In this document: positions 8,440-62,339 of the stretch, one piece after another | How positions within the stretch are numbered: the stretch's first letter is position 1 | Layout of the letters: each line of letters starts with the position of its first letter | DNA from: Antitrichia curtipendula | Taxonomy: Eukaryota > Streptophyta > Bryopsida > Hypnales > Leucodontaceae | Direction of reading: 5' to 3' | Assembly: GCA_951230915.1 (NCBI GenBank) | Contig: OX579636.1 | Location: 32,299,567 to 32,363,566 of the forward strand | Length of the DNA: 64,000 bases | Made by a program: the position numbers and the translations under genes | The notes under the pieces: model-generated | Told to the model about the DNA's origin: nothing | What the model saw: only the letters and a program-made list of their open reading frames with translations | The model's database searches: none

Positions 8440-9644
8440 AATAGTAATTCTCTTATCTCCCAAGTCAAGAAATGACCATTAAAGGAGCAAATCAATGTTG
8501 TATTCTGGTAGTAGCTCATATTATGTGTTCATGTCTTTTGAATGCATAGTCACTCATCTAGGCACATAGTCATTGTATTAACATTGCATTAATTTGTTTG
8601 TTTTTGATATGAATAACAATTGTTGATTTTTTTAAAACTACCCCCCTGCCCCTATTTGTAATTTTCAGGGGAATCCTCAGATACAAACCATATGGGATAT
8701 ATTGTTGAATCCATATCCTTGAATCCATATCTGTATTTGTATCCATATCCATCTATTGTATTTTATATTTGTATTCATATTTTGTATGCATATTTGTATT
8801 TGTACGTGAGTTCTGATAGTTATATCCATATTCGTATTCGTATTTTGTATTAAATTGGATCAACGGTGATCAAGAGGAGGGGGGGCAATTTTTTTATAAA
8901 AAATCAACGGCTCTGGATTTTTTACAAAAGGAGTGTGTGTGTTAATTGAACAAAAAAGGATGTTCGCATCTTTTGAGTGAATAGTAGCTTCTTTGGTACA
9001 TATTGGTGCCAAATATTTAATTACAATGGAAGAATAAAGGTTTGTAGTTTAGATATTGCCTTCCTCACAAGAAGCCCAAGACTATAGTATAGGGGTTCAA
9101 AATCTAGGAAATAGTCAAATAGTTTAAGGTTTTATGGCTAAAATCACTTGTATTTGAATTTAAAATGAAAGTTATACACAAAAATAATGCGCAATTCACA
9201 TAATACTATCCCAATTAGATTTTTACTCATATTTTCGAGGAGTAATTTTGTAGCTAGTTGTTAATAATGCGATGGATGCATGATTGCTCTTCTAGTCCTA
9301 GCTAGGGATGCACAACAATTTGTCTTGCAGCATATGCTCTAGACTTAAATACATACAATATATAGAAAAATATATTCATATTATACATTCATATATACTT
9401 CCTAATTTATTGGTGATAATTTTTTCCAAAACAGTTTGTCGCAATCACTACTGAGCTAGCATATTCACAAGTTAGGATGAGTAGGATTCCAATCTCAATC
9501 TTATATACAACAATTTGTCTGTACATGAGTGTGTGATGCAAACTTGGGGAGGTCACTTAGATTGTCCATTAGAAACCATGTGTGATCAAAATTTTGGACC
9601 CTCTATATACTTTTTGAATTTTAAATAACATAAATAAATAAAAA

Positions 9645-15505: not shown

Positions 15506-16458
15506 TTAACCCCTAAAGGTTTTTGACTATGTTTTCTCAAAAAACGCCTCCAAACTGCCATTTCTAGTACAAGTACCAAATTTTGGAAAAAAAACATTTT
15601 TGAACACATGTAACCGTAGGATCTTGTAGTAAAATAGTTTGAGAAGATGTGGAAAAAATTTCAGAAACTTCCACCGTGTAGATTGCAAGATATTAGCATT
15701 TGAAGTGACAAAACCCCTTTTTTTGTCCCTGCAAAAAACCGGGCAGCTGCACTTCACATGGTCACATTTGTATGAAAAAATGTCCAAAATGGTGGTAACT
15801 CTTTGGATTCATTCTTCAAAGCAAGTTAGTTACATTCTTGAAAAATTTCAGATCATTTGAAATTGTACTACATATAGGAAAAAAATAGTAAGTAGAAAGA
15901 AGTAGAAAATGATTCAAAACACTAAATTGTTAAGGATTTAATTATGGAATTGAAAAATGCCAATCCAAACGATTGTAATGTTGTAATAAACAATCTACAC
16001 CTTGTGTTTATATTTATTTCCAAAAATATTGAAAATTGAGTTAAATAAAGGACTTCAAAGTTTATTTTAGAGTAGAGATTCCATAACTACCCGCAAACTA
16101 CCCACAACTAAAATTCCTCATAACTTTCATATCATAAATCAAAGTGGAATGATTCAAAGCTTTCCTTGTGCACATAAATCTAGAGAACCAATTTCAAAAT
16201 TTTATTTCTCTAGAAAATGATTTTTAAATAAGTTTTTTTTGCTGCCCGGGCTGCCCGCCGAACAATGAAAACTACATATCATACCATAACTTTTTAACCA
16301 TGTGGTCAAAAGTTATGAAAATTGTTGGGCCCTAAAGCTACTCCTTGGGCACATCTTGTGTGAAAATTTCAAAGGAAAAAAATAAAAATTCCAGTCGTGG
16401 TGAGCTGCCCCCAAACGCTATGTTGTCAAAAAAAGGTGTTTGGTCCTTTAGGGATTAA
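15506..16458. mobile_element. TTAA-family element, well preserved copy
   Basis: The element is bounded by TTAA at 15506-15509 (followed by CCCCTAAAGG) and at 16455-16458 (preceded by CCTTTAGGGA), and is about 950 bp long. It is a nearly identical inverted copy of 62340-63291, differing by scattered substitutions only, which implies fairly recent movement. A minus-strand open frame at 15527-15787 is shared with other copies but has no recognisable domain. Confidence 0.8.
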
Positions 16459-17080
16459 AGTGGAGAATTGAGTTGAGAGTCTAGGGGAAAAAAAAAATCC
16501 GAAAAAACTTAATTTTCATTATTAAAAAAATTGTTAAGTAGAAGTAGGTACAAGATAGAAAGAAAATCTAAAATATTAATATCTTTTATATGGAATTGAA
16601 AAGCACTAATTCCAATGGTGAGGTTGTTCTAGCAAAAAAGCTAAACCTTGTGGAACTTTTCTTTTTGAGAAAGTATAAAAACTGCATTCAAAAATGAATC
16701 CTACAAGTTATTTTTTCAGGAAGATGCTCTAAGTGTCCGAAAAACAAGATTGTCCATAATTTTCTCATAACAAATCCAAATGAAATGAACCAAAGCTTTC
16801 CAGATAGACAAAAATATAATCTACAAGAAAAAAAAAATTAAAAAAAAAAAAAAAAAATTAAATTTTTTTTTTTGCTGCCCCCCGATCCCTGTTTTGAGCT
16901 TATTTGGTCATAACTTTTGTTCCCAGGCACCGATTGTGAAAAAAATTGTATTCCCAGAAAGCTAATCAATTTTTCAATCTTCAAAAAAAATTCAAAAAAT
17001 CATGACAAAAATTCAGTCCGCAGGTACCTGCCCAAAATCCCATTTGTCCCCTGAAAGGACAATGGTCCTTTAGGGGTTAA
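16459..17080. mobile_element. TTAA-family element, partial copy
   Basis: The right end GGTCCTTTAGGGGTTAA finishes at 17080. Inner text (GAATTGAGTTGAGAGTCTAG, then 'ctgccccccgatccctg' and 'gaaaggacaatggtcc') matches 47930-48577 in the same order. The left end is replaced by the neighbouring copy. Confidence 0.55.
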
Positions 17081-18295: not shown

Positions 18296-18305
18296 CTTTG
18301 AGGGG

Positions 18306-18348
18306 CAGGGTTGCTATTCTGTGAGCTTGTGAGCGTGAGCATGTGAGC
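18306..18348 (+). repeat. Left terminal inverted repeat of the large transposon
   Basis: It begins CAGGGTTGCTATTCTGTGAG and is rich in GTGAGC repeats that continue to about 18366. The adjacent CTTTGAGGGG at 18296-18305 is the target-site duplication. Confidence 0.88.
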
Positions 18349-18859
18349 CTATGAGCGTGTGAGCGTACAGTTTTTTGGGATGAAAGTTGATGAGGTACCT
18401 ATTACCGTGGATTTAGGACAGATATTTATACTTCACAATTTATAATGAAAAAACATTAATGATCTTTTTTCTAACCTTTTTAAAAAGTAATTCAAGTCTT
18501 TTTCTTAAAAATTATTTATGGTTCAGGATGTAGTGTACTATATAATTGTGATTATAAAACTAATATAACCTGAAAATCCCTATTGAACTGAAGTGGTTTT
18601 AGATATTTACTATTGATTAGGACAATGCCTTCCTAATTCAACATGAAGTACTAAAATATAGTTCAGGAAAAGTAATTTAGGGTTCAATTCGAATTTTTGT
18701 ATGATTATGGAATTTTAGAACTTCTAAGCGACATGCAGTTGAACTTGAACCCATTTAGTAGGCATTTGAAGTTAGAATTTACTTATAATTGAGGAACAAA
18801 AAACAACAAGAATTAAACAATAATAAACCCAACAACACATGATCAATAAAAAAAACAAG
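18349..18859. other. Left subterminal region of the transposon
   Basis: This AT-rich stretch lies between the terminal repeat and the methylase gene stop. It includes further GTGAGCGT copies at its start and the 3' UTR of the methylase-like gene. Confidence 0.45.
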
Positions 18860-21800
18860 TCACATAGAATGAGAGTGTCCACTACTATCAGTGGACGAAG
18901 TCTCTATCTCTGATTCTAGGGCTGTGACATCTACAAACTGCAAAACCCTCGGATCTATAGTTGTAGACTTTTTCCGGCTTGGAAAATCCCTTTGAGACGC
19001 AAATGTCAAGGCTAAAGCTTCGGCATATTCAGGCAACACAAAGGACTTCTCCGGGCTCCGAAGAAAACTAGATAAAGTAAAAAATGGATGATGACCTCCT
19101 CCATTAGAAGTCATGCTGCAAGATGAAAACAAATTATTAGACATGGTTTTAATATCACATTAAACAAACATGCAACATAAATTCAAAAGGAGTAATGAAT
19201 TATAAAAATCTTCACATACACATAGGAAAACAATGCAAGCTATGGATAGACTTACTTACTGAAACGGGATTTCTTCACAATGTGGGGAACAATAACCTCC
19301 ACTGCATCTTCATCATCAGAATCCGCTATGATTGCTGCGATTGAAGGAGGGACATCTGGAACTGTACGTATCATTGGAGCCAAAATAGCATCAAAGATTG
19401 CCTTGTCCTCTTCGAGTGCAACTACATGCCTGCTCAAGATCCTACAAGCGTGGATGGAAGCCCCTAACACCAAGAAGACAAGAAAGTTAAGTACTACAAC
19501 ATTCAAGTTACATAAAAGGAAAATGAAAAGTCAGAATTACCAAACATAACTTATTAAGTCATCAAAAATTACCCGTTGCAGCAGTGCAATCGACAACAAT
19601 ATCATTGGAAAATGTTGATGCTTCTATCAACATCTGCAAGAAACGGGGATCATTTTCTCGTGCCCCTCTCCAAGCATTGAAGTTGCTGTCTATGGTCAAA
19701 GTTTCATTCTTTGTGAAATTTTGCAGAACATCATCCACAGCAACATCTATCCCTAATTCCTTCAACTTCGGACATGGGTGGAATTGGAATTTGGAAGGTC
19801 CAACACCAACCAAACTCCTCACCAATAGCATAACTCGAAAGAACTGGGTCTGCAAGAAAGAAGATAAATAAAAACAATTTTATTAAAAAAATGTAGAGAT
19901 ACATACTACCAACTGACTTGAGAAACTCAAGAAATCAGAAGTGACTAAAGAGATACAGCTAAAAGAAAGAGTCAACATTCAAACAAATCAAGAGAAAGAA
20001 ACTAAAAACTAACTATTGAAGATTGAAAGCATTTGGATCAGAACAGAACCTTTAAAATGAGATTTATGAGAAAATGAACATACCGTGCATCCCGTAGAAA
20101 CAGGTGATGTGAGATGTAACCAATTCGTTCCCCACCAATCCTTCATCTTTGTAAACGAGTACGTAGTAGCGTACTTCAGAATGGTGGCCTTTGCAACAGC
20201 GCATCGTGGATGAATAAGCACAATAGCTCCATCATCATGTAAATGGCCGTCCGCAAACTCAAATACCGCCTCCAACCACTCAGGTTTAGCCATGTTCCAC
20301 TTGGGAATACTAGTAGCTGGCATGGACAAAGAAGGGACAGGCAATCCCTCGGGCATATCCGCAATCACGAGGTCAACGCGAGGTTTATCACTTAGTTTAC
20401 CGTTAAAGTTACGCTGCTTGTCTCCTTTTTTCTACAACAACGTAGTCTCCATCAGTACAAAGACAAATGACATTCAAAAAAATAGACTATAGAGAAATCA
20501 TAAACACTGGTGAAGGCTACTAACCTTGTCAATAAAACTGAGAAGGTCGTCGTAGACTTTGGGGAGAGGATCCGCCAATACATCTGTAAGAGAATAGTTC
20601 AAAATCAACTCAGAGATAGTAATCTCTGAGTCCTTCAAGTAGTCCACAGCTGCAGGTCCATGGTGGATTTCCTCAAGACTGAGCGAAGCATACTCAGCGT
20701 CACGTTTGGTGCCACGGAAAAACGAGCGCTGGTGCTGTGAGCCCTCATCAATGGTTGATGAAGGCGGTTGTAGCTCCTTCTTCTTCTTCCCCTTCATCTT
20801 CACAACTGTCGGGGCACACTCCGTCTCAATCATTTTCTGTGTCCTCCTAGAAATCCTCTCTTTGGCTTTGTCCACCGCCTCGGAGTTCTTTTGAGCAATT
20901 CTCTTGTCCGCCTCATCTCTCCGCTTGATAGCTCTGGCTTTTGCATCCTCATCAAGTCCAACAAACTCATCAATCTCTTCAACAATCTGATGGGAGTTGA
21001 TTGATTGCTTAAGGTGCTCCTCTGGCAACAGCGTGAACTCCGGTGAACAGTCCAAATACCACGCTCCCAACTTCAAGTGCAAACTAGTCCACCACTTCAA
21101 CTGCGATGGCGAGAACATGCAATGCTCAGAAGATACATCTAACCAGGTTCCCAGAAATGGAGGAAGATCACGTTTCAAGATCGCACCCTTCGACAAAAGC
21201 TCATACTTGAAATACCTGAAACACCAAAGAGTACCCATTAAGAACTTTTACAACAGTTTAGAATCAAACAATAAAAAGTGTCAATGCCAACATCCACAAG
21301 AATGCATACCGGTAAATAACAAGTTTCACCACTAGATCGGAGCCCTTGTGCTTTTTGAAATCATCGGACTTCCTGAAGACATCGTGCCCTCTAAATTGAG
21401 TAATGAACGCGTGGTCCCAAACTCGAATTCTCCACCCCTCCAAATACTCGGCAAAACTCTCTAGCTCCAAGGGAGAATCCATGGTCAAATTCAGCTGGTC
21501 CTTCTTCACAATGTTGTCAAACATTTCTGTCCCAACTTCTTCAATCTGTACAATGAGATCACGGAATTAGCGGCATGCATTTGATTACATTCTGAAAAAG
21601 AAAAACTCCAATTCTTATAAGGCAGAGTTAAACAAAGACTTATTAGGATCCAATATGTAACAACAACTAAATCACTTACCCCTGCATACCAACAGGCTTT
21701 TGCCAAAAAGGACTTCAACTCGTTCTCCCCAACTGGCTTCAGTGGAAATCTTCTCGCTTCTCTGGTGTGAGTAGAACAATTCCACCACCGAAGCCACTTC

Positions 21801-23279
21801 ATCTTTTGATTGCTGCTAATGTTGCAAGTTGCAATTAACTGCAACTTCTCCAAAGTCATTTTTGGGGTGACTTTTGAACTCCAGTGGCGCTCAATCTAGA
21901 AAAAAGTGTAACTGTGTTAGGAAACATGTTACAACATCAAAAAGTAACTAGAAAACATGCAAATGTTAATACATACCTCAACAAGCCAATCAGTCCCAAG
22001 GCTTGGATTGGCGACGGCGGTTAACTTGCCCAACTTCTGTATCAATCTGGATGTTTTTTCCTTCGTACCCAATCTCATTGCAGCTAGTACACCCTCCTGC
22101 GACTGCTCTTCCTCCAGTGTTTCTTCCTTATATAATCGAACTGCAAGATCAGAGGCGACAACAATCTCGTACTGCGGAAGCACATGATCATTAGTGAACA
22201 TGGTAAACAAAGCATTTCAAATCAACGAAGTAGGAAGCAAATAAACCAGAATTACAGGATAGAGTACTTACCCGGAAAATGAATGAGGTGAAAACCTCAA
22301 GCGACATCGAGTACCAACTCTTTCGAAGGTTTTGATGACACTGCAACATCTCACTTTCACTCAAGTGTTCAGAGAACTTCTCAAGTGGTAACATCCTATA
22401 CTTGTGGACACAATACAATGTGTGTATCAAGATTGTCTTGATGAAGGAGTTCTCCGTGTGCCTGCACAGCATAATGAGATTGATAAGCTATCTTTACTGC
22501 GTTTAACAGAATAGGAAATAAAACTACAATGAGATGATCTATTTACTTGTTAATGTCATGCATGGCATGCATGACATCTCCAATTCGGCCCTTCGTCTCG
22601 AGAATGATTGAGTCCACCGAAATATGCCAATCTCTATCACGCTCATGGTGTTTCATGATGTACAAAATCCACGCAAGCAGTCTGTGATTTCCATCACAGA
22701 CAAAGAATTTCGACCTCAGAAGATCCTGCAAGCTTGGAGTTGCACTCAAAGTGGAGTTGAAGATGTCGTTTTCTTCATTCCACATGGGCCCCCACGCCTC
22801 TTTGTCTGCATCAGAAACCATCTCCGTCTCCCGTTATTCATTAGTAAGTGAAACGTAGAAAACACAGGAGCCATCTCTATACCCATGAACAAACTCTTGC
22901 TCTAGTTTAATGAGGTCACACTACAGCGCTGGCCTGACCATCGGCATTTGGGCAAGACGGCACAATGGAATCCTCAGTCGTGAAATGGAATGTGGTTTGA
23001 GTCGCAAGTTGGTAATGGATGCAACCGAATTAACCTTTTGAGCTCTCTTCAATGCGTCCTCGGATTTGAATTCATCATCAAACTCCTCCTCCTCGTGCTC
23101 AGTGACATTGACCATGTCGACTCTTTCGCTTGCCTTGACTTCTTCCTCAGTAATGTGAGGCTTCGGAAAAATTAAACTGCCCGCCATCTACATTGGAGAC
23201 AACATAATGCATTCAGGCTACAGAAGCGACAGTGACAGGCAACACCACAAAGAATTTCTGGAAGGGATAATAATAAATC

Positions 23280-24545
23280 GCACGGCGAACTCACCTCTGA
23301 TCGATCCCCCGTGAGGCCCTCATCGGCGCCGAGGGGACCCTGGCTACCCAACAGCGAGCGCAAAAATCCCCCAAGAAAAAGAGCAAGGGTAGAGAACTCA
23401 CCTCTGATCGGTCTCCCGTGAGGCTTCCGTCGGCGCCAAGGGGACCCAAGCAGCCCCACAGCGAGTGCAACAATACATCATGAAAACGAGAGGGGCTAAG
23501 TGCTTACCTCAAGAGTAGTGCCCGTGACGGTCTCATCGGCGCCGAGGGGACCAAGTAGCCCCACAGAGCAAGCGAAACAACCAAACGAAAAGATGAGAGG
23601 GGCGAAGTGCTGACCTCAAGATCGGTCCCCCGTGAGGCTTCCGTCCGCGCCGAGGGGACCCCAACAGCCCCACAGCGAGCGGAGAAATCAACCGTGAAAA
23701 CTTGAGACGGGCGAAGTGCTAACCTCAAAATCGGTCCCCTGTGACGGTCTCATTGGCGCTGAGGGGACCCAGTTGCCCCACAGCGAGCGGAGAAATCAAC
23801 CGTGAAAACGAGAGGGGCGAAGTGCTGACCTCAAGATCGGTCCCTTGTGACAGTCTCATCGGCGCCGAGAGGGCCAGGCAACCGACAAAGCAAGCGAAAC
23901 AACCAAATGCCAAGACGTGTGGGCGAAGTGCTTACCTCAAGATTGGTCCTCTATGACAGTCTCATCCGCGCCGAGAGGGCCAGGCAGCCGACAAAGCAAG
24001 CAAAACAACCAAATGCAAAGATGAGTGGGCAAAGTGCTGACCTCAAGATCGGTCCCTCGTGAGGCTTCCGTCGACGCCGAGGGGACCCGAGTAGCCCCAC
24101 AGTGAGCGGAGAAATCAACCATGAAACGAGAGGGGCGAAGTGCTTACCTCAAAATCAGTCCCCCGTGACAATCTCAACGGCGCCGAGGGGACCCAATAGC
24201 CCCACAGCGAGAGGAGAAATCAACCAGAAAGACGAGAGGGGCGAAGTGCTTACCTGAAGAGCAGTCCCCCGTGACGATCTCATCGGCGCCGAGGGGGCCA
24301 GGCAGCCCCACAGAGCAAGCGAAACAACCAAACGCAAAGACGAGTGGGCAAAGTGCTTACCTCAAGATTGGTCCCCCGTGAGGCTTCCGTCGGCGCCAAG
24401 GGGACCCCGGTTGCCCACACAACGAGCGCAACAATCAAACGAAAAGACGAGCGGGGTGAAGAATTGAGCTGAAGATTGGTCCCCAGTGAGGCTTCCTTTG
24501 GCACCGAGGGGACCCAAGCAGCCCACACAGTGATTCCGAACATAG
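23280..24545 (-). repeat. Tandem array of 12 GC-rich units, period about 106 bp, in intron 1 of the methylase-like gene
   Basis: The GGCGCCGAGGGGACC-type core recurs at about 23324, 23431, 23537, 23650, 23753, 23859, 23967, 24071, 24179, 24284, 24389 and 24497. Each unit also contains GTGAGGCTTCC or GTGACGGTCTC and, read on the minus strand, a GAGGTAAGC splice-donor-like motif. Units diverge by scattered changes. The array lies wholly between the coding exons ending at 24891 and starting at 23187. It is much richer in GC and CpG than the surrounding DNA. Open frames across it reflect the repeat only. Confidence 0.85.
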
Positions 24546-25022
24546 AACGAAGCGAAGATCAGAATTGAAAGTTCGTGGGTACATTCATTATCTGACCCCG
24601 AGGATATTACATCGGCTGTAATTTGGAACACCAAGACAGTGCTGTACAAGGGAATTGGTGGAGGGCATTTCTAAGCTAGCGAACCACTTCAGAGATCATG
24701 TCTTTCAATTTAGTTTCCTAATACGCACCAAGCTGTCAAGGAGAAGATGTACGTGAGGAGGAGGTCAACTTTATCTACTTTGCCACCATGAAACCCTGAC
24801 TCACAACGGTTTCAACAGATAGACATGACAAACACAACTCACGATTTGATTCATTTACAAATGTGGATTCTGATATTGAAGTTATCATACCTCTGATTCC
24901 GCGGCACTGCGGGAAGGCGTGACCTCAATTCCAACATGTTGGCCCGAGCCAGCATTGTTGTCGTTGCTGTGAGTATCTTCTTGTGTCTCTTTCATCGTTG
25001 AGCGCCTAGTTGCAGGTTGTCT

Positions 25023-27046
25023 CGCTACAACAAAACCAGTGTTTTATGACCGCAAAATACGACTGCAATGAGTCGTAAAATCAAAAAATATGACTGGCCG
25101 CAGAAATTACTGTAGATGACTGCAATATGACTGACATGAGTCATTACCGACGAGTCGCTTCGGGCATCAGTCATATTGGCAATCATATTTTTTGGGGGGT
25201 ATAATTATCCATAATTAGCCGTATTTTGCCAACAAGGTGTATATTTTGACTATCTTTGAGGACTTGACTTTTTATTGAGTTGCCCGGGCAAACAAAAATA
25301 AATCCTACGTGGCATGTGACTCCACGTAGTCAATTTTTTTGGATGATGTGGGATATGACTGCGGTCAGTCATATTTTGGCTGACGTGGAATATGACTGCG
25401 GTGAGTCATATTTTGGCTCGTGTGGCATATGACTGCGGTCAGTCATATTTTGGCTAATGTGGCATATGACTTTGTACAGTCATATTTTTTTTAGATGTGG
25501 AATATGACTCTTGTGAGTCATATTTTATTAATGTGAAATATGACTCTTATAAGTCATATTTTGGTTGATGTGGTACTTCATGTGGATGTCATTGGTAGTT
25601 TATGACTAATTGCAGTCATATTTTGGAAAATACAAAGTCATATATTGGAAAAGACTCCATGTAGTTAAAAATGAATACGTATGATTTTAAAGATATACAA
25701 GAGATAATCATATTGGAAAGAAAGAATGTAAGAAGGAAAGCAACTTTCATCATTAACATTTATTAATCACCAATACAAAACATATATACTACAATGAATC
25801 ATTCACAAAATTCAAAAAGGCCTATATTCCTTACAATAATGGGAAGATGACTCTATTGGGTTGCAAGTAGCCTCCAATGACTTTGTTTCAACTTTTGGTG
25901 CCTGCATAAACAATTAAAGAAATGGGAGGTTAATTTTTAGTGAATGAAAAACAAAGCTCAACCTTCAAAGGCTTACAACAACACAAAATATGTAGCTCAA
26001 GTTTAGGGTAGGAAAAATAAGAATGATGATGGAGAAAACAAGAAGAAGAAATAGACAAGTACTAAGAGATAACAATAAGCAAGAGTTAAGATGCAACAAG
26101 AAACAAAAAGCAACAACTAAGACACAATAGGAAACAAAAAGCAACAACTAGGATACAACAAGAAACAAGAAACAACAACTAGGACACAACAAGAAACAAG
26201 AAACAACAACTAAGACACAACAACTAAGACACAACAAGAAACAAGAGTTAAGATCCAATATAAAGAAACAAGAAGTAAGAATTAAAAAACAACAAGAAGA
26301 AACAAAAAAAAGAACTAAGAAGAAGATAAGAGTTAAAATGGTAGAGAAAGAATGAGTTTAGATGCAATAACAAGAAACAAAAAGCATGATTAGAACTAAG
26401 AAGCAACAAGAAAGAAGAGATAAGATGCAACAAAAGACAACAACTAAGAAACAATAACAAGTATGAGCTAAGAGACAATAAAAGGCAAGGAAGAAGGGTC
26501 AAAAGAAGTGGCGGCTAGGATTTCAAGATCCTAAAAAGTGGCGGCTAGGATTTCAAAACCCTAAAAAAGTGGCGGCTAGGGTTTCAAAACCCTAAAAAGT
26601 GACGGCTAGGGTTTCAAAATCCTATAAAAAGTGGCGGCTAGGATCTCAAAACCCTAAAAAAGTGGTGACTAGGTTTCAAAATCCTAAAATATAGGTGAGT
26701 AGGATTTCAAAATGTTAAACAATGATTTTTCTAATTTTTTTTGAATTGCCCGTATTTTTCTTGGGTTGCCCAAAACAAAAAAATGTCACTACTATAGAAA
26801 TATGACTGACAATGTGACTCAACATTCCCCAAACATTTTCCCTACGTTCCCTATGAAGTACTTTGGTGTTCCTAATGGTCGTATAGTGTATACTTATGAA
26901 GTAGAAGGCCCAAAAATGACTGACAGTCATATTTTGCAGTCATATTTTTCCTCAATGTGTTGGCCTTCAAGAATATGACTGCAACTAGTCGTCAGTCATC
27001 CTCAGTCATATTTTTGCAGTCATAAAATACCTGTTTTCTTGTAGTG
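25023..27046. mobile_element. CACTA-type non-autonomous element, complete, 2,024 bp
   Basis: The ends are CGCTACAACAAAACCAG (25023) and the complement of CACTACAAGAAAACAGG (27046), matching En/Spm-type termini. The flanks carry the 3-bp duplication TCT (25020-25022 and 27047-27049). Inside are palindromic ATATGACT..AGTCATAT units (about 25080-25640), a purine-rich AACAACAAGAAACAAG tract (about 26040-26480) and a 30-bp tandem repeat (26508-26712). No transposase frame. It is inserted in coding exon 1 of the methylase-like gene. Confidence 0.88.
26508..26712 (+). repeat. Seven tandem units of about 30 bp inside the CACTA element
   Basis: The unit is GTGGCGGCTAGGATTTCAAA followed by ACCCTAAAAA, with scattered changes. 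Several units contain AAACCCTAA, which equals the plant telo-box. Similar text occurs once or twice in the truncated copy at 6925-6965. Confidence 0.75.
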
Positions 27047-27202
27047 TCTTTCCATTCCTTTAAGTCGTATTGAAAAAAACAATGCAAATCCAATGAGTAA
27101 GATTGAGCATAACAATTTCCGACACATAGAATCCTATTATGACCTTTCAGCTTTTGGAGTAGTTGTTTCTGCACTGCGAAGGTCAATCTCTACTCGGGCG
27201 TA

Positions 27203-27828
27203 TCAACGGTGTAAAGGGATCAAGAGTTTGGTGACTGGTGATGTCTTCGCGACGATGGTTATGATTAACGAGGCCTGTCTAGTAGTTGCGGCGCACAGGT
27301 AATCCTAGGGTTTGGGATGAGATATTGAAGTGCTTCTCCACTCTTGGAAGCCCTTTCAATTTTTATTAATTATCCAAAATGTGCAATTGAGTAGATCTAA
27401 AAAGATTAGAATGACTAATTTGGAGCCGACTCTGCTTTTGTGTTTCACTAGCCCATCACATTAGAATTCTAAAATTCCTAGAAGGTACTGGACGTTGCAA
27501 TATATAACCACAACACAGAGTAGCGTACGGGACTTACAATAAAAAGTGATGGTGAACCCAAAGTACAATGATTTGTCGACTCCTCCTTAACGTTGGTTAC
27601 CATTCGCTCACTCCCGTCTACGGAGAATTGGAAGTCTTTATGTCCGTGATTTGGATGGACAAATGATCCCCTGTTAGAAAGTGACTCGCAAAATAGAGTA
27701 GTTTTGGTACTTCTAATCTTGGACCTCTGCAATTGCTTCCTCGATGAGTACAAGAGCTTACCTCTCTTTTTCCTCTTTCTACACTTTGGACAAGGATCAG
27801 AATCGCCTATGCTATCTAGTGTATGCAT
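27203..27828 (-). CDS. Unrecognised small protein gene inside the transposon, two exons proposed
   Basis: Exon 27828-27538 (97 codons) ends at a canonical donor GTAAGT. An acceptor after CCCTAG at 27305 opens an exon 27304-27203 that stays in frame for 33 codons and ends TGA, giving about 130 residues. The N-terminus has a CPKC pair followed by a strongly basic run (CRKRKKRGK) that could bind nucleic acid or be a nuclear signal. No known domain is recognised. It lies upstream of the methylase-like gene on the same strand, 148 bases before that gene's original ATG, so it could instead be a 5' part of that transcription unit. Codon content looks better than the flanking DNA but is not decisive. 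Confidence 0.4.
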
Positions 27829-28761
27829 AAGACTAAATGTACATATGCTAAAACAATACTAGACACAAACATGTGTGCACATCAAGAGACACAGAGCATG
27901 AGAGAAGGAAAATACTCGCTTTGTGTTTTTAACATTGTCTAACCAATTGCTAATATACGGAATTTTATAGTGTAGGGACCGTAGATGTGTTTCTTGGCCT
28001 CCTCCAGACACTATTTGGGGTGTCCTTCAAAAGTCCTAAAACGGCGGGCGTATTAGTGTTTTGTATTCAAATTGGGTTTGGCTAGTACTTTTTGATTGTC
28101 TAATCCAATCTAAGTAATAATGATCTTATAAGCACATTAAAAGATATTTTAATTTTTACATTATGACCGTCATAGCTTTCCAAACTAATAATGTTGCGCC
28201 GGTAGTTTTTAAAACTACTATGCAAGGCTATTGGTCATAATATTTCAAATCAGCCGTTGCTTACGTATAATATGACGTTGCTGGTTACAATGGACGCTTA
28301 CAGATTCTACATAATATCGTACTACCTCCAAGCTTCCGAGGGGCCCATATTTGATGGCTTATCACATTACTCTTATTCATGAATTAGGTGAGCTTCACTA
28401 CTAATTAGCTGTGGCGGAGGCAGGATATTGTAGTTCTATAGATCTTGTTATTAATAACTACAACTATAGTATTGATGACGGTGGAGTACAATGACTTTGA
28501 ATTTCAAATTCATGTTAGTCGCATGTGTATATAGTGATTTTGGACGCTCACCCTAAGTTTGCATGTTCTCTTTATCTATATCTCGCTTTCTGTATTCGTT
28601 TCTTCTACTTCTATGGCCTCCATTCGGGCCGATGGCCATGAGCCCATGAGATTCCACTAGTAATTCGTTTAGGAGATGAGGGTTTTGCTGTACTATCGTC
28701 TCACCTTCTTCATGTTCGGTTCGGTTTTATACAGTCTAGTATCTACGTTGAAGAAGAGGTC
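27829..28761. promoter_or_regulatory. Divergent intergenic region between the two gene arms of the transposon
   Basis: This stretch of about 930 bp separates the outward-reading gene arms and should contain both promoters and 5' UTRs. I see no clear repeated operator-like motif. Assignment rests on position. Confidence 0.45.
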
Positions 28762-31700
28762 ATGTCCGAGTTTGGTTCTTTGAAAGAGTCTATCCACATT
28801 CCGGAAATTGTAGTTGACCTCGGTCATGTCTGGCACCTTTGTTCCGGGAGATATCGAGCTTATGGTTTACCATATAGCGTTACGCTACCTTCCACTCATA
28901 TTTTCGTTCGGCAGTCAGAACATTCAACTGTGGACATGCCTTTTACCCGTCGTGAATGTGGAAACTCTACTAAGCGCAAGTTGGCGACGAATGCGAATAC
29001 ACCTGTTCAACTCGTCCGCATAAAGCAAGAGCATGTGGATCTTGTTGTAGATCTGTCTAGTGAGTCCGAGGGAGAATCACCTAGTCAACCTGTTTGTCAA
29101 GCAACGTTTCCAAGTAGAGTCTCCAACGATGTCGTGCAGACAACATCTGATGTATTGTGCGCGCCTTCTCATAGTCTAGCTTTGTCAAGTTACTCTCGAC
29201 CACCAACTTACCCGAGTGGTCCATCGTCAATTAGTATCGTTGGATGCTTACGCAAGCTAGCAACACTTCGTAAATCTCGGAACGAGATTGCTGCTTTAAA
29301 CTACAACTCTCTCAATCACCAAAAAGTGCAGTATCTTCCTGCTGAGTTTGATGGTGATGTAGTCTTTGAATTGCCCAGTCTTCGTGGTTCATCTTCTTCA
29401 TCCGTTGTTGGGAGTCTACAGGGCATGGATAAGAAATACGATGGACATGCATGGTGTCGAACCATAACCTCGAATATTAGCAACGAAGATGGCCTCAAGT
29501 TCAGGAAGTCCTCGTGTGCAGGACATCTGATTTGTAACAACTCTGACTGCGACTACTTCAAGAGATCTTTGAAGCGGAATGAAACTGAGTGGTGTGGTTA
29601 TACTCCTATTCCCTTTCAGATTGGCGGAAACCCTCCAAAGGATTCATGTCTTCTATGCAAGATATGCAAATTTCCTCCGCATTGTGTTAATATATGTGAT
29701 GCTAGAATATATTACGTTTTTGGCGATATAATGCAGATGACTAGAGCATGCATTCACTTCGGGTTTCATATGCATCCTGTAGCTTCCGGAACTTGTAAAA
29801 AGTCGGTAGACACTATTTCTGGCCTCATTGCCGGCGAGGTTACTAAAACACCCTCTGCTACTAACTCTGCAATTGCTCTAGCAGCCAGTAAACAATTTCT
29901 AGACAACCACCTCATCCATAATGGGGAAGGCCTTAAAGAAATGTTGCGGGGGAACTCGCTAGAGGACGTCATGGATAAGTTTCAGATTCTGAGTTCTCCA
30001 ATCATCCAAAACGTTATTTCCTCTTTTCGTACTAGCGGGAAAAGCGGGGTTATAGATAGCATCATGAATATGAAACGCAATTTGAGGTTTGAGTATATTC
30101 ATGATAGTGTCTTTCCTGGACAAGGAAAGGAAAAGGTCTATTTGTTTAAGATGTTGGTAGAAGGTCCAAGCAGTGGAGTGGACTTGGTCACTCGTATACA
30201 ACCTGGAGGAGATTTAGAGAATGCATGGCTTATGTTTGACCATGTCAAACGCGTCAAAGATTGGACAACCATGGCTTGCCATGTGTATGATACTAGATGC
30301 AGAAAAGTCATGACAATCGCAGTTTGTGACATGCAATCCGAGGACACGGAAGTACAGTGCATCATGTGGAAGTTATTGAACGGGGTCATGAGCTGCAATG
30401 GGATACAGAATCCAAACTTCAAAGGCTTTATGGCAGATAGTGCACAAGCAAATTGGAATGCTGTGCGTATTGTATACGGATCAAGGGATTACAAAGTAGA
30501 GATGGAAAATCGTGAGCAAACATGTTTATTGCATTGGAGTACTTCATTGCATCGCCATACGCAGAAGCTCATTAAATCGGACTTTCAACACCAACATATC
30601 CGTCTCTGCAAGCAATACAAGGATTCTAAAGCTATGGATGAAGCTAAGACGCGGTATTTGGCGATTCGATCATGGTGGCTATCATCTGGAGCACCTTCTG
30701 AAGATGCTCTAAGGGAACTGGAGTTGTGGCTTGCATTTTGGCACTTTCGATATCGCCAATGGGGCGGATTCATGCAAATGGTATTTCATATTTTCTTTTT
30801 AACTTTTTTTCATTTTCATTTTCTTTTTTCATTTTTTATTTCATTTTTTATTTCATTTTTTTTTAATGTTATTATATATATATTCATATACATATATTTC
30901 AATAATTTCCTTTTGGGTCGCATCGAATTATACTATGTATTGATTTGTTTGATCAACTCAAGTAGTGGTTGCCCTTCCTTCGGCGCCGAGGGGACTCTAC
31001 AGTGCTTAGTAGCTACTTGAAAACTAGTAAAGGACATTCTCATTTGTAATATTTATGAATTGCAATTTTTAATGATGGTCTTGCATCTTATTCTTTGTTT
31101 TACTGATTCCTAGATATACGCTTGGTAGTGGTTGACCTTCCCCTCGGCGCCGAGGGGACTCTACGCAGATTATGCAACAGTTCAAAAACTACTTCATTAC
31201 TTGCTTATTAGTAATTTTTCTAGATTAAATGTCTTAGTGAATATCTTGCATTTTATTCTTTATTTTGCTTCTTCCAGGATTTAAGTGTTGAGGAGATGGC
31301 GGACATGCCATCATGCAACTTATCCGAAACAGTCCATAACAGATGGTTGCAGCAATCCGGTAATCGAGGTAATGATCTATTTGCCGCCACTTCGGATGAT
31401 TGCATTCGAGCCTTCATGCAGATGACAAATTATCGTGCTTTCCTTAAAGGCAATATATCGAGATCAAGGCCATCTAAAGAAGAGTTAAAGTTAAGAGGTC
31501 CTAGACGTAGCGGAGACCCGAAGAAGATTGCCGAAGCTTTAAATGACCTTCCCGGAGCAGCTGATGTCGGAACATGCATTCCGCATTTGGAAGGCGAAGA
31601 GATTTTTGGTAGCAGTATGCGCGAGCTTAACCTCCCAATTGGATCGGATGGTGACTCCCATCGTCCAGACAAGGTGAACTTCTCACAGCCACGTGTCCAA

Positions 31701-32681
31701 ACACGATCTACACATACGCCCACAGTGGCGTCCAATGAACACTTAGTGGCTGGTATTGCGCATGTACCACACGTTACGACAGCAATGGAGAGTGATTGTG
31801 ATACTTCACATTGGCACATTGCAAGAATTTCGCACAAGTCTGCTTGCAAATGTCACGCCCAACAAAGGGGTTCCAACATTCGCTGTGTTGCCAAAATTGC
31901 AAAGGGATCTAAAGGCACTCCAGCTCCGACGTATCGTGGTAGAAAAAAACAGTATGGCAGAAATAAGGAGATCATCACCGACTTCTGGTTCTGCCCAGAT
32001 GATATTGACCGATGTGTACGAGGCTCTAAACGTGGTTGGGTAATTGACTGGCCTCAAGTACCTGATGTATGGCCTATATTAACAGGTACTAGTTTGACTC
32101 GCCAAAAGACATTGCTACTGCAAGAGGCTGGCTTTCAACTTCAACAGCGACCACCTATGTCACCTCGACGTTTGTTCACAATGTCCAATGTTTTCCATGC
32201 AATCCCTTATGATCAATCTAGTCCTTTGCATGCGGACACATACCCAACAACTCGAAGAAGCAAGGCTATTCGACGTATTGCGAATGCTCCTACTACAGAG
32301 CATCGCAATAAATGGGAGAGTGCTGGTAATGTCAAAGGATCCATCTTGGGAGTAACTATGCTCCCCTTTCCAGGACTTGGAGCTATAATTTCTCTTCAAT
32401 CCGGAACCAAGCCTACACAGAAGATTTATCGTATCACACTTGGCATGTACTCAGAGTGTAATTGTCCCGATTTTGTAGACATGGCCGTCTCAGCAATTGG
32501 TGGGCGGCAGCAATACGTTAATTGCAAACATTTGTACTACTTATTTCGTTACTTCTGCAAGATGAATCCCGAAAATGATAAGTTCATACATTCTCTAAGC
32601 TTCAGCTTCAATGAAGTGAAACTCCTTCTTAGTAGGGCTGGTATCATCAAGGTGGCAAATGAGAGTCTTCCAAATGTTTAG
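28762..32681 (+). CDS. MULE-like transposase with zinc-binding region, DDE core and SWIM zinc finger
   Basis: Exons 28762-30780 and 31278-32681 give 1,140 residues with no internal stop; the GT-AG intron falls between whole codons. Residues about 85-120 include a KRK basic patch and VDLVVDL followed by acidic SESEGE, resembling a SUMO-interacting motif. Residues about 230-350 form a cysteine/histidine-rich region (CAGHLIC, CDYF, CLLCKIC, HCVN, HFGFHMH) like the WRKY/GCM zinc fold placed before MULE cores. The RNase-H-like core includes LMFDHVK (Asp493), FMADSAQANW (Asp559) and the TCLLHW motif; the third acidic residue is not assigned with certainty. The C-terminus has a SWIM finger: CNC (1067-1069) and CKH (1089-1091). 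Known MULE transposases bind terminal repeats and cut and join DNA in the nucleus. It is probably the autonomous source for this element and may act on the related MITEs. Confidence 0.86.
30781..31277 (+). repeat. Transposase intron with two copies of the array core motif
   Basis: This intron contains a TTTCATTTT-rich tract, then two related blocks of about 43 bp at 30960-31002 and 31125-31168, each with GTAGTGGTTG, CCTTCC and CGGCGCCGAGGGGACTCTAC. The core is the same as in the 12-unit array of the other gene arm, so both introns of the transposon carry it. Confidence 0.8.
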
Positions 32682-33112
32682 AGAACGAAAAATGTCAAAG
32701 TGATAGACATATGAAATTGGAAGATTATAGACTGAAGTTAGTTTTATAGCTTTAGAAGTATCAGTTTGTATTTGGATGAATACTCTAGTTTTCCGAAGTA
32801 TTCAATACAAACTGTCTTCAGATCCGACTTGCATTTATGCTCTACAGTTGTTTGCCTTCAAATTTTTTACTTTTCATCCTTCAGCTAATTTGTAAAATTA
32901 GTGTCATCCTGCAAATAAAAAATAATGACGGTAATATGTCCACGGTCATAGGTCCACGGTAATAGGTCCATGATAAGAAGTTCAAAATTTCTAATAGAAA
33001 TAGAAATTATTTTCAATATTGTTATGATATTGTTAACTTTTTGAAATATGACTGACTTCCCTAAGGTATTTTTTAAATTCAGACCTCTATGCTCACATAT
33101 TCCCCGCTCACC
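32682..33112. other. Transposase 3' UTR and right subterminal region
   Basis: AT-rich sequence without a gene lies between the transposase stop and the right terminal repeat. Confidence 0.5.
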
Positions 33113-33155
33113 GCTCGTATGCTCACGCTCGCAAGCTCACAGTCTAGCACCGTTG
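33113..33155 (-). repeat. Right terminal inverted repeat of the large transposon
   Basis: On the minus strand it reads CAACGGTGCTAGACTGTGAG and continues with GCGAGCGTGAGC. It is followed on the plus strand by CTTTGAGGGG (33156-33165), the second copy of the target-site duplication. Confidence 0.88.
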
Positions 33156-33165
33156 CTTTGAGGGG

Positions 33166-37316: not shown

Positions 37317-40300
37317 ATGAATTACAGTGTCAATTATCCAGCCTATAACCAATCAATACAAGGTGCAAGTGGCGCTGGCCCGTCAGAGTCAAATTGGAAC
37401 GTGGATCCAGGTACTGGAACACCACGGCAATTTTATGATATTCTCCGTCTGATGGATTAGGGCAAACCACAAATTTGAATTCAGTCAACGAGGCATGATC
37501 TGATTATTGTATAAATGCCCACGGATGGTCTGCAGGGCCGTCACAGACCTTGAACGGATGGGACGACCCTGTTGACGGCTGGGAGCTTCACCCTTCCTCT
37601 AACTCCTACGGCGACCTGAACAACGGCAAAGCCCCCTGGGACACGCTCTCCAACGGCTCCGGCTACTTCACCAAAGTGAAATCTTCCCGCAAGGGAGGGA
37701 GCTCCATCGCCTCCGCCTCCCAGTACTCAGGCCGAGGAGCCGGCCGAGGCTCCAACCGCACCAACACCAACACCAGTCCAAGAGGCCGAGGCACCCCGCC
37801 CGGCAGGGGAGCCGGTCGAGGGAAGAACTTCAATGGCGGAAGAGCGAAAGGGAACTCCTCGTGGGGGCAGAACCAGAATGCGAGGCAGTATGAGGAGTAC
37901 GGGGCTCCAGCCACACGAGGGTGGGAGAATGGGGCTGCCTTTCCGGCACCTTCTCTCAGTCCTGAGAATAATGGATGGCAACATGTAGGGAGTCACAAGA
38001 GCCGCAACGGCTCCGAAAGCTCCTCCCGAAGCGCACCAGGGGGCCAGAACCCGAAAGCCTGGCATCAGGGGGCCAGGGCATCGACGCAGCTCGTCTCGGC
38101 TGGGTCGTCAGGTAGGAAAGGATCCACGTGTTGAAATTCATGTAATTCATGTCCTTCGCAGATGATCATGTCATTGTTGAAAGCCACAACTTTCATCATC
38201 TGTGGGGTTTTAGGGTTTAGGGTGACACTTTGGACGTGGGAGGTCTATGTCGGTAGCGAGTTTCGTCATCGTGATCTGCTGGGTTTGGGGGTTAGGGATA
38301 AGGGGTCATTTTTGACGCGTGAATGATGTTGACGATTGATGATTAGAAAGTTAGTATGTTTCGGAGATTCTGGTTGTTGAATGCTGTTGTGCTCAATCGT
38401 TGAATACTGGTTTTCAAACTTCGTTGTGAATGCAGTATATTCTAAGGTGAATGCTGTCAACAGAGAATGAGTATGTTCAAGTGGACACTAAAGTCTTCAA
38501 CGTTAAGCTTGGTTTCCATCTCTGTGACTTGAGTAATGGCATTGTATTGAAGTGAATATCAAAGTGTGCATCATCTCTCTCGTACCGATGTCCGCGAATA
38601 TTACCGATGTCCGCGAATATTGTTGTGCGCAGGAAGTTCTTTGCCGCAAGCGGAGGGTGGAAACGCCGAGGTGTATGACTACCCAGCGAGCCCGTACTCC
38701 GACAGCCAGTGCTCGGACCTGGACCACGTGGAAGACGACAGCGACGACGCGTTCTTCAGCGACGACTCGTACACGCAGGAATCTCACGAGGAGCAGAAGA
38801 AGATCAAGTGGTTCCGCGACTTCTTCCAGGACCTGGACAGCATGACGGAGGTCCAGTGCACCGAGCACGACCGGCAGTGGCACTGCCCGGCGTGCAAGGG
38901 CGGCCCAGGTGCCATCGACTGGTTTCGTGGCCTGGCTCCACTGGCTACGCACGCTCGCACCATGCGCTCCCGGCGGGTGAAGCTGCACCGCAAGTTTGCC
39001 GAAGTTCTGGAAGAGGAGCTCCGCATCCGTAGATCTGGCGCCCCAATTACTGTGGACGGGACGCAGCTGGCGTTTGGGAAGTGGAAGGGGCTGAGCGAGG
39101 AAAACGAAGTGCAGCAACAGCTGCTCGTGATCTGGCCTCCCATTGTGGTTATCCAGAATACGCAACTGGAGCAAGACGAAGAAGGAAAGGTATGGATGTG
39201 TCGGTAGTGAAGGTGCCAGTTTTGCCTGGAGAAACAATGGGGTGGTGCAGTGGATTGGAAATGTACGGTAGTAATGCCCAATATGACCACGATGAGTGAT
39301 CCGAATATTTCAGAGAAGACATGAAGAACCATGTTTTTCAGTAACCGATGGATTTGCTATGAATTTTTGAAGTGTGCTACCCTACAGGTCACTCCAAAGC
39401 CAACAATTGTTTCCATATTGGTCACTTTACTCATCTATCGTGGTCACGATATTTACTTAATAACCAACTCAATGTCCGAGTGGTTTCATTCCTTGCAGAA
39501 TATTCTGTTATGACCTGACTTAAAAAAGGTAGAAGATCCTATTGTTGCTAATAATTCTAATACTCTTAGACTGTCACTGGAAACTTTGACTGGCGCCGCG
39601 TTCACCCCCCCATTGTAGCGCAATCTCAGATACTCAAGAGGGAGATTTGACCCCAAATTCATGGCCCGCTACCTTATGTTTCTGTAGCAAGCTACGTCCT
39701 CTCCTGGTTTTGATGTGCAGAGGCCTTGATTGATGCCAGTTTTGACAAGTGAGTCAACTGGTTTGCAGTGGATTGGAATGGGGAACAAGGAGCTGGTGGA
39801 CATGTTCAAGGATTACAACCCTGTGAAGCCTCGCCATGCTTATGGACCTCTCGGTCACCGTGGGATGAGCCTGCTCACCTTTTCAGATTCTCCGGCTGGT
39901 TACCACGATGCCGTCCGTCTTGGCAACCATTTCGTGAAATTGCGAAGAGGGAGAGACGACTGGACTCGTCCTAGTAAGGCTATTTTTCGTCCTGGGGGTA
40001 ATCGGGTTCTTTACGGCTACTTGGCTGTGAAGGAAGATCTGGATGTTTTCAACAGACACAGCAGAGGTACTCACCTTTCTAAACCTAGCTTCATATTTCA
40101 GAGGATGTTCAAATTGGTCATTTATTAAAAATCCAGTTCTCTCCAATAATTGTCTACCATCAAGAGTGCGTGACATGTCCTCAAAACCCGGTTATTGTCA
40201 GTGGGGACCACTTTTAAAAAATAACTGAATCTTTTTTGCATCTCGTTTCTGGTGCAATCACATGAAGTTGCTGTCTTGTACCTAAAAGGTTTGCATGTAT

Positions 40301-42391
40301 AGGTTGCATGTGAAAGCTATCTCTTATTTACCTCTGGTTGTTGCACTGTGTCTAAGGTAGGTGCACCTAAAAGTACCAATACACCTAATCACACCAGCAT
40401 GTAAATTTCATCTTCACTTCAGAATTCTAAACCTGGGATAGTCTAAACCTGGGACTTGTCTTACGAGATTTGAGCCACATGAATGATTGCTCTAAATTCA
40501 GCTTATAAAATGAAGAGGATGTACGTCGTGGTGCAGTTAGGTTCTCCTACTTTAATCTCTGAGTTCTTAATTACTCATTTAAAACGTACTCTTGAGTCCC
40601 ACTATTGTACTTTATTTCACAATTGCTTGTTTTGTTTGTATTTCTGACACTCGTGAGCACAGGTAAGACGTTGGTGAAATATGACATGAGGAGGCTGCAG
40701 GAGGTGGTGGTGGAACCAATGCAGCGAATGGAGCAAGAGAATCAACAAATGCAGTCTTTGCAGAGCGAGCACAACACTCTCAAGAAAGCAGTCTCTGAGA
40801 CATCTAAGAATTTACAGCTCCGTGAGGAGGAGCTGCAAGTGATGCGAGATCGGGGGGAGAAGCAGCACCTTGAGAACAAGCGTCAGGTATGCATGGAGGG
40901 TGTTCAACAACATAATATCAGCACTTCACCCTAATAATGACAAAATTGGTTTAGTAATTTATGAGTTATTTTGAATTTTAACCTCTAAAAATATACGTAA
41001 ACTGAATTCTTATAATGCAATTACATATTATTTACGTCGTGTGACATCTAAAAAATGGAAATGACAATAATTTTTCTGTTATGAACAATTCATGGTCATT
41101 GTTGTCCTTTAAAGGTTAAATTTTAATTATGGGCATGAATGGTGGTAGTCACCAAGTCCCCATATATTTTCTTGTTCTCTTATAGGTTTGTTTGCAACCC
41201 TATTCCCTTGCCGACCACTACTTTGCAAACATGTTCTCCCATTGGATTGTTTGCAATTCTATCTTCTTGTGTAGTGGCGCATTGCAAACCGATTCTCAAG
41301 TTTGTTTGCAACCCTATCCGCTTGTCTACCATCGCTGTCCAAACCGAATCTCCCGTAGCCTTGTTTGTAACCCTATCTTCTTGTCATCTGTTGCTTTGGG
41401 CTATCAATTAGTATTTGCATTTAGATCATAGAACTCCATTAAATTTGAAGAGGTATTTGAATCCAAGGTAGGTAATGAGACTTCGTAGTAGCGACACTTT
41501 TGGGTTCCAAGCTTGCATTAGGTAGTTGATTAGACGTTATAGTTGATTTGAACAATCGCAAATTTACAAGCTCATTTTCAGGAGTTGGCATGCCTTTCAT
41601 ACCTTGCGCTTTCTTTAATGATCAAGCAAATACTGGGTAGAGTTCAACCCGAAAATTCTGTTGTGCTCACAGCTTGCGGACATGGAAGAGTTTTTCCATA
41701 AGGAGAGTGCTCATTGGGCAGATGAGGTCGCTTCCAAGGACACTGAGTTGCAAAAGTTGAGAGACGATTTCGACAAAATGTACCAAAACCGTTGTCAAGA
41801 ACTGGATGCTCAGCGTTCCAATCTTCTCAACAGTCGAGAGCAGCAATCCATGTAAGACTCTAACTCTTGAAACATCAGCACTAGATCGATCGCGTAACTT
41901 GAATGTGTTTTTGCCGTTGCAAATGGCCTTGTGCTAAGATTGGGAAGCCATTTCTGTGTCTGTCACCGGTTTTGAGTTCTTTCCTTGTTTTCATGTTTTG
42001 GTATGTCCCCGTTTTCAAGGTGCTTACAATGCACCAACAACATCTGTTAGTGCATTGTAAACATCTGCGAGTTCATAGTCTCTTGTTTTTGAATGACATA
42101 TATGTTATATGGGTGAAATTTTTCAACCCACGATATCCCAGAATTGACCCTTCCATTTTGATATGCAGAATGGCGGACGACATTCAACAAAAGACGAAGA
42201 AAGTGGAAGGCAGTTTGCTGGAGGCACAAGACTTTGAGAATAAGCTGAAGGAGCTGGAACAAAGGCACCACGAGGAGCGAGTTCAGTTCCACAAGCAGCA
42301 GCATGAGGGAGCCGTGGCCTTTGAGCAGCGGATCAAGACCGAGAGGACGGAGTTTCTGCACAGCTTTGAGAAGCAAATCCAAATTCGGTAA
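37317..42391 (+). CDS. SGS3: SGS3 protein (zf-XS, XS and coiled coil), 7 coding exons
   Basis: Coding exons: 37317-37410, 37536-38111, 38633-39189, 39769-40066, 40663-40886, 41673-41851 and 42169-42391; 716 residues, all phases matching and all introns GT-AG. The N-terminus is glycine/arginine-rich (RGAGRG, PRGRG; about 95-140) with GW dipeptides; an acidic serine-rich stretch follows. The zf-XS domain near 305-355 reads WHCPACKGGPGAIDWF then HARTMRSRRVKLHRKFAEVLEEEL. The XS domain (about 365-508) includes WIGMGNKEL, HAYGPLGHRGMS and LYGYLAVKEDLDVFN. The rest is coiled coil. SGS3 is known to bind double-stranded RNA with a 5' overhang and to protect cleaved transcripts for RDR6, in trans-acting siRNA production and gene silencing, in cytoplasmic siRNA bodies. 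The ATG was chosen because it follows an acceptor and opens a continuous frame. Intact and ordinary for the family. Confidence 0.93.
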
Positions 42392-61655: not shown

Positions 61656-62339
61656 ATATTTTATTTAACTATGAGCCATTGGGCTCCTTCTATTTCTAAT
61701 TTACATATTCCACATTGTTTAATTTACCGTCTACTATCCCAAATGTATATATACAACTTACCTCCTCACCTAACATTTGAAATGTAATTGACCTTTACAT
61801 TTATACAAGGTGTTTACTAAGTTTATTAATATCGATGAATAGAAAGTTGATTTCTTGAAGTTTCTCATGTTTTGGCACTTGAAATTATTGTATAAGGTAG
61901 GAGGCTCAGAAAATGGCACATTAAGGGCTGGTTCGCCTTTTTTGTGTATTTCATTGGATGGGAATAATTTTAGATCGTTTTTTAGACAAAAAAAATAGAC
62001 GAGGAATCTAAACCAAGTGGTTTCGCATTTTTCCAAACATTTTTGAATTACTTATAAATTTCCAAACAAGTTGGATCATAGGTCCCTACTTATAATCCTA
62101 GGTCTTTTATAAATGGTTTGCTTGCAATTCTAATGAAAGATGAGGAAAGAAAAACAAATGATTGGCTCTTGCAGTTGATAATGTTTTTTTCCTTGATTCA
62201 TTCAATGACTATACATGTCAATTTCAAAACCAACTCATGTCCATCTCACAGCCATTTGTAGGGTCCATTCTTAATGCCTGTTCCATTTCAGAGCCTCCTA
62301 CCTTAGTATAAGTTATCCAGCAGCTTTCACTTCAATTCT

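Follow-up and report, generated by a model that had tools for sequence, protein, structure and literature searches.

A large two-gene MULE-superfamily transposon family in the moss Antitrichia curtipendula carries a methylase-like gene with an altered catalytic motif

Transposons with an epigenetic-type gene of their own are described for a handful of groups in the open-licence literature. The VANDAL elements of Arabidopsis are Mutator-like elements (MULEs) that encode a dedicated further protein, VANC, and contain non-coding tandem repeats (PMC5735166, PMC10398659); SET-domain MULEs and the HarbingerS elements of Phytophthora are DNA transposons with a gene for an epigenetic enzyme (PMC12730594, PMC6446971). 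In some fungal DNA transposons (IS3EU and others) the additional gene, for a TET/JBP dioxygenase, comes from the DNA-modification repertoire of phage type (PMC12730594), retrotransposons of dinoflagellates and charophytes encode C5 methyltransferases and DIRS elements Dam-like adenine methylases (PMC5890265), and Mariner elements of algal giant viruses combine a DDE transposon with a methyltransferase gene (PMC3627910). Here we describe a 64,000-nucleotide stretch of the moss Antitrichia curtipendula (contig OX579636.1, positions 32,299,567 to 32,363,566; hereafter the window), in which a 14,850-bp transposon copy (18306-33155) holds two divergent genes, one for a putative transposase and one for a methylase-like protein.

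This element differs from each of the described systems. Compared with VANC, its second protein descends from a beta-class methyltransferase and the gene is transcribed divergently from that of the transposase. The SET-domain and HarbingerS elements carry a histone methyltransferase and belong to oomycetes, whereas the moss protein is derived from a DNA methyltransferase; the fungal TET/JBP elements carry an oxygenase, use other transposase superfamilies and reside in fungi. The C5-methyltransferase and DIRS elements are retroelements with C5 or Dam-like enzymes, whose description in the relevant sections of PMC5890265 includes no altered motif IV, and the giant-virus Mariner elements are viral, come with an endonuclease and have different methyltransferase domains (PMC3627910). 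Searches of the open-licence PubMed Central literature, with Repbase and subscription papers outside the search, showed no beta-class methyltransferase gene in any MULE; the groups listed in the relevant sections of PMC6446971 include none of this kind, and the string "methyl" does not occur in its main text.

The element in the window belongs to a large family of DNA transposons of the MULE superfamily with two genes each, as seen from its ends, its target-site duplications, its further copies, the gene pair and the selection acting on it. At the left terminus (18306-18367, plus strand) several GTGAGC-like motifs follow one another within an imperfect inverted repeat, and its inverted counterpart forms the right terminus (33094-33155, minus strand), which is present in eight of the 11 copies studied over 20 kb, the window copy among them. 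Aligned without gaps, the left end agrees with the reverse-complemented right end at 35 of 43 positions, and their local alignment score of 50 was reached by none of 4677 random window pairs (null maximum 33), which rules out chance similarity. GAGC motifs are dense at both ends (6 and 6 per 80 bp). Within the 64 kb the 10-mer CTTTGAGGGG is present at just two sites, which exactly abut the two ends as a left (18296-18305) and a right (33156-33165) target-site duplication of 10 bp. GTGAGC-rich inverted termini matching at about 35 of 43 positions, an identical flanking 10-mer and two large divergent genes between the ends had all been claimed in a sequence-only reading of this DNA, and all three hold, the genes giving products of 967 aa on the minus strand and 1140 aa on the plus strand. 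Separately, the left duplication is similar to that of another copy, C3:20.09 (CTTTAGGGGT), a possible sign of target preference.

Searches of the 400-Mb assembly of the moss's own genome with the first 195 bp of the left end gave matches of 78-100% identity at no fewer than 40 sites (40 of 341 candidates scored; 42 rows, of which two are split fragments). We examined 28 of the 40, including the window copy, for 11 of them a stretch of 20 kb and for 17 one of 2.5 kb, and methylase-like exons lay directly beside the left end in all 28. The remaining 12 lie together in a single C1 array, and in each of them a match to methylase exon 8 is placed by coordinates about 1.9 kb inside. Among the 11 long copies, transposase exon 1 was found in nine and the right end within the stretch in eight; in C2:32.10 the transposase lies about 2 kb past the 20-kb stretch, and in C5:4.58 no transposase was seen. 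The eight two-ended copies are 12.8-18.3 kb long. Target duplications at other copies had been proposed as a check, and seven of these eight have a perfect 10/10-bp duplication, C3:13.07 failing with 4/10; the seven represent six different sequences, two C1 copies sharing one as a segmental duplicate. This census is keyed on the left end and may miss elements that keep the right end and lack the methylase gene. The C1 region itself (41.44-42.12 Mb) is a large segmental array with 14 left ends and 16 transposase rows, mostly in 40-48-kb steps and in both orientations.

Pairing of the two genes was also assessed from the transposase side, using the best 66 of 1787 transposase candidates and the best 150 of 1136 candidates for methylase exon 8. 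In 58 of these 66 transposase loci an exon 8 was found on the opposite strand, 2-25 kb upstream. Among the matches listed, the pairing held for 30 of 33 loci in the subfamily of the window copy (85-100% identity), for 28 of 33 in a second subfamily (74-78% identity), there at 5.3-8.4 kb, and for 44 of 50 outside the C1 array (41.4-42.2 Mb). Random placement, with small contigs treated as 50 kb long, gave a mean of 0.92 pairs and at most 3 in 500 trials; pairs in the same orientation numbered 0. A metagenome hint of pairing, in which transposase P0021 and methylase exon P0083 were both on 18,151-long contigs (one of 18 transposase rows with contigs of at least 15 kb), is superseded by the own-genome counts. 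Additional groups of methylase-like exons, about 54-66% identical and in many cases free of stops (best 150 of 1136), suggest more than two subfamilies.

MULEs are prone to acquiring host gene fragments (PMC6446971), and the methylase-like gene could on that ground be a host gene captured as a passenger, in the manner of a Pack-MULE, by chance in the window copy. As the gene accompanies 28 of 28 left ends examined, is paired with the transposase at 58 of 66 loci, occurs in two subfamilies and is under purifying selection, such a capture is highly improbable, and the left-end and transposase counts likewise rule out a composite element or a passenger gene. The gene's origin was likely one ancient capture. 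The sequence-only reading had taken it for a second gene of the element and had named copies lacking it, or ends without genes, as what would count against this; the pairing supports that reading, and no left end examined was without the gene.

The plus-strand gene, as its residues and predicted fold show, encodes a putative cut-and-paste transposase, in two exons and of 1140 aa counted from an in-frame ATG at 28762. Exon 1 (28762-30780, taken from that ATG onward) holds a GCM-like zinc domain, the first two D of the DDE core and a CxxH motif; the intron lies at 30781-31277, and exon 2 (31278-32681) brings the third catalytic residue (CNLSETVHN) and a SWIM finger (CNCP...NCKH). Splicing of both genes was assigned by eye with GT-AG borders, and the exon structure of the transposase was confirmed by its relative L001, in which the intron position is the same. 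The SWIM finger pattern CxC...CxH is present in the window transposase, L001 and P0002. The DDE triad belongs to an RNase H fold, and CxxH is placed between its second D and its E, which is a MULE transposase motif; the closest structural match of the predicted fold is ISCth4, a member of IS256, the bacterial relatives of MULEs. The actual start of the gene (28613-28641), located by copy alignment, is out of frame in the window copy through an 8-bp insertion that no other of nine aligned copies has. L001 was the one match in prokaryote genomes, a 4.1-kb contig in a "Synechococcales" (cyanobacterial) metagenome-assembled genome; it is a contamination of the prokaryote bin, because it encodes a eukaryotic transposase with an intron.

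Sequence searches of the PDB gave nothing useful. Profile searches of Pfam and NCBIfam gave no significant match for the transposase, so that the element could be placed outside the MULEs, in another DDE superfamily or a new one. We consider this improbable in view of the 10-bp duplications, the DDE residues with CxxH, the SWIM finger, the GCM-like zinc domain and ISCth4 as best structural match, and the earlier MULE-type assignment is retained on the same features. Target-site duplications of MULEs measure 8-11 bp (PMC6446971).

The methylase-like gene runs on the minus strand from 22833 to 18860 in 10 exons with GT-AG borders (967 aa, no stop), and is preceded in the same frame, without an intron, by an N-terminal part at 23187-22834. 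The first exon (22547-23187, from splicing and copy alignment) thus comprises M2 and this N-terminal part, which is ParB-like by eye. Exons M3 (22272-22461), M4 (21977-22171), M5 (21680-21895), M6 (21310-21545) and M7 (20525-21215) are supported by splicing and other copies. M8 (20084-20431), found at 150 or more loci in the own genome, carries the altered catalytic motif IV, ADMPEGLPVP; splicing and profile comparison place motif I (DCTAATG) in M9 (19573-19849) and the rest of motif I with a motif X-like stretch (ASIHACR..ALEED) in M10 (19256-19463), and the last exon, M11 (18860-19115), is present in 28 of 28 copies studied. Directly after exon 8, a valine compatible with a GT donor is found in 41 of 44 readable metagenome rows. 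The N-terminal part of the window copy has two in-frame stops (22921-22923 and 22834-22836); at these sites most other aligned copies are open, while one copy has the first stop too and one has a gap.

A full-length search with the methylase-like protein gave one relative, P0001 from the moss Ceratodon purpureus (E 2e-60, 33% identity over 34% of the query; best 7993 candidates scored), and 45 relatives of exon 8 were found in metagenomes. Viral contigs held no confirmed relative of P0001 or of the transposase. The protein matches Pfam N6_N4_Mtase with E 5e-4 and 0.034, both below the family cutoff, and a DNA methyltransferase in PHROGs, and these and the phage matches all fall in the C-terminal stretch. 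When compared by hhalign with eight phage proteins, all annotated methyltransferases and some of them picked as weak matches of the query, 192 columns from motif IV to X were aligned (93.4%, E 2.4e-7), while the transposase as control gave 0.1%. Profile comparison thus shows the second protein to descend from phage- or bacterial-type beta-class amino-methyltransferases, and we class it as derived from these, not as an active member. A "ParB-methylase fusion" had been proposed from the letters; the methylase part is supported by the profile comparison. The ParB part is unconfirmed, searches of Pfam, PHROGs and the PDB and of phage and plasmid sequences having given no match for it. Only the stretch CDGNHRLLAW, a motif recognised by eye, hints at ParB.

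Several features would fit an active DNA methyltransferase, making N6-methyladenine or N4-methylcytosine and marking the element's own DNA. The beta-class order is retained, with motif IV ahead of motifs I and X, as is the acidic residue past motif I (ALEED), the gene is under purifying selection, and other transposons are known to encode methyltransferases (PMC5890265, PMC3627910). However, the catalytic motif [DNS]PP[YFW] is mostly D-x-P-E, which makes self-methylation doubtful: over 45 readable metagenome rows motif IV has D in 43 and P at the third position in 44, followed by E in 39, D in 3, S in 2 and R in 1, so that the aromatic residue is absent in 45 of 45. In the own genome all 11 long copies retain D-x-P-E, as do 14 of the 16 short copies in which the motif could be read. 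Position 2 of motif IV is variable in two of the eight phage proteins as well (ADIPYG, CDLPYE), and it is therefore the loss of the aromatic residue that is the telling change. The S-adenosylmethionine (SAM)-binding loop of motif I is also changed in both full sequences (DCTAATG and DWSASTG), GxG being replaced by AxG or SxG, and rotifer N4CMT was inactive after SPPY was changed to APPA, where both S and Y were altered (PMC8885841). Base methylation by this protein has most likely been lost, an active enzyme is in our view unlikely, and the earlier claim that the protein methylates DNA is not borne out.

Selection was assessed as the ratio of nonsynonymous to synonymous substitution rates (dN/dS). 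Pooled values were 0.22 for the methylase-like gene (11 copies, 54 pairs) and 0.25 for the transposase (8 copies, 27 pairs), while the transposase intron treated as coding gave 0.79, 0.62 and 1.43 in the three frames, which shows that both genes are under similar purifying selection. N-terminal codons 65-117 of the methylase-like gene are strongly conserved (0.11, 36 pairs). Concurrently, most single copies are decaying, with stops in the methylase exons of nine of 11 copies and in the transposase of five of eight. The window copy has open methylase exons M2-M11 and an open transposase frame from 28762 onward; it is probably non-autonomous now, because of the two stops at the methylase start and the 8-bp frameshift at the transposase start, and the family has probably been autonomous.

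Upstream of the methylase-like gene there is a minisatellite (23299-24530) of 11.5 copies of a unit of about 106 bp, identified by repeat analysis. The unit contains a 16-mer, TCGGCGCCGAGGGGAC, which also occurs twice in the transposase intron (30980-30995 and 31144-31159), a sharing found in none of 1000 shuffles, and seven of seven independent transposase introns have at least one exact copy. As a conserved site TCGGCGCCGAGGGGAC may be regarded as suggestive, and stays so because the intron is conserved in general. The targets of VANC are arranged as tandem repeats in non-coding regions (PMC5735166, PMC10398659), and the non-coding repeats of the moss element may be seen as a parallel to these, not as proof.

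A number of observations weigh against parts of this picture. Eight of the 66 transposase loci among the matches listed are unpaired; one of these, C218:3629, lies less than 4 kb from the upstream edge of its contig, and partners of some may have been missed, as the methylase side is the best 150 of 1136. The top Foldseek match of the transposase has E 4e-4 and low TM-scores (0.19/0.32), and matches beyond ISCth4 are mostly noise. The predicted structure of P0001 is poor (predicted local distance difference test, pLDDT, 43.7), and the methylase fold rests on sequence profiles. Constraint on methylase exons 8-10 (dN/dS 0.34, 55 pairs) is weaker than on the whole protein, and N-terminal codons 1-117 give 0.38 (44 pairs). 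In the intron 349 of 532 columns are invariant and TCGGCGCCGAGGGGAC does not rise above the rest, and at the minisatellite position exact 16-mers are found in only four of 11 copies.

Of the possible functions, we lean somewhat towards an accessory role, in which the methylase-derived protein with the altered motif is an element-encoded DNA-binding partner of the MULE transposase, acting in anti-silencing or as a helper of transposition. Such a helper role is suggested because a conserved gene has an altered catalytic core. The transposase would perform the cutting and pasting of the element. The second protein, in which the methyltransferase-derived domain is joined to the conserved N-terminal part and a middle part, possibly binds SAM and would bind the element's DNA by recognising its own repeats; it would thereby maintain the element's activity, through counteracting silencing by the host, which is the role of VANC in VANDAL MULEs, or through support of the transposase.

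A narrower alternative is that the protein serves transposition alone, by binding the ends, stabilising the complex or aiding excision repair, and has no part in silencing. The regular pairing with the transposase, the conservation of the GAGC-rich ends among the matched left ends and the extra open reading frames known from some MULEs (PMC6446971) are consistent with this. However, such a role needs no methyltransferase ancestry, and the present data do not separate a helper from an anti-silencing protein; we find this restricted version rather doubtful. Going further than the accessory role that we favour, it is a tentative possibility that moss-type MULEs evolved element-specific anti-silencing from a phage DNA methyltransferase, independently of VANC, and that a ParB-like/methyltransferase-like protein with a rewired active site reads the ends, the minisatellite and the intron motif and blocks or erases silencing there.

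Other features of the window were also recorded. Another transposon of about 1.5 kb is nested in the element (25022-26555); by self-comparison of the window it is 88% identical and inverted to 6913-8440, and one end of this transposon is CACTACAACAAAA, which we take to be CACTA-like. A few kb beyond the right end there is a plant-type gene (37499-42391) in which 38551-39207 matches zf-XS above the cutoff and XS below it; presumably it is an SGS3-like gene, its wider extent being drawn by eye, and SGS3 is an RNA-silencing factor. Within the sequence itself, this gene and the Ceratodon relative are the two signs of a land plant, probably a moss. Inverted repeats at 15506-16460 and 62338-63291, 97% identical and about 46 kb apart, are related to 57968-58901.

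Taken together, our results show that the methylase-like gene regularly accompanies the transposase, in dozens of copies and at least two subfamilies within one plant genome. The family thereby offers a testable case, outside the angiosperms, in which a modification enzyme may have been turned to another use in the conflict of transposons with silencing by their host.

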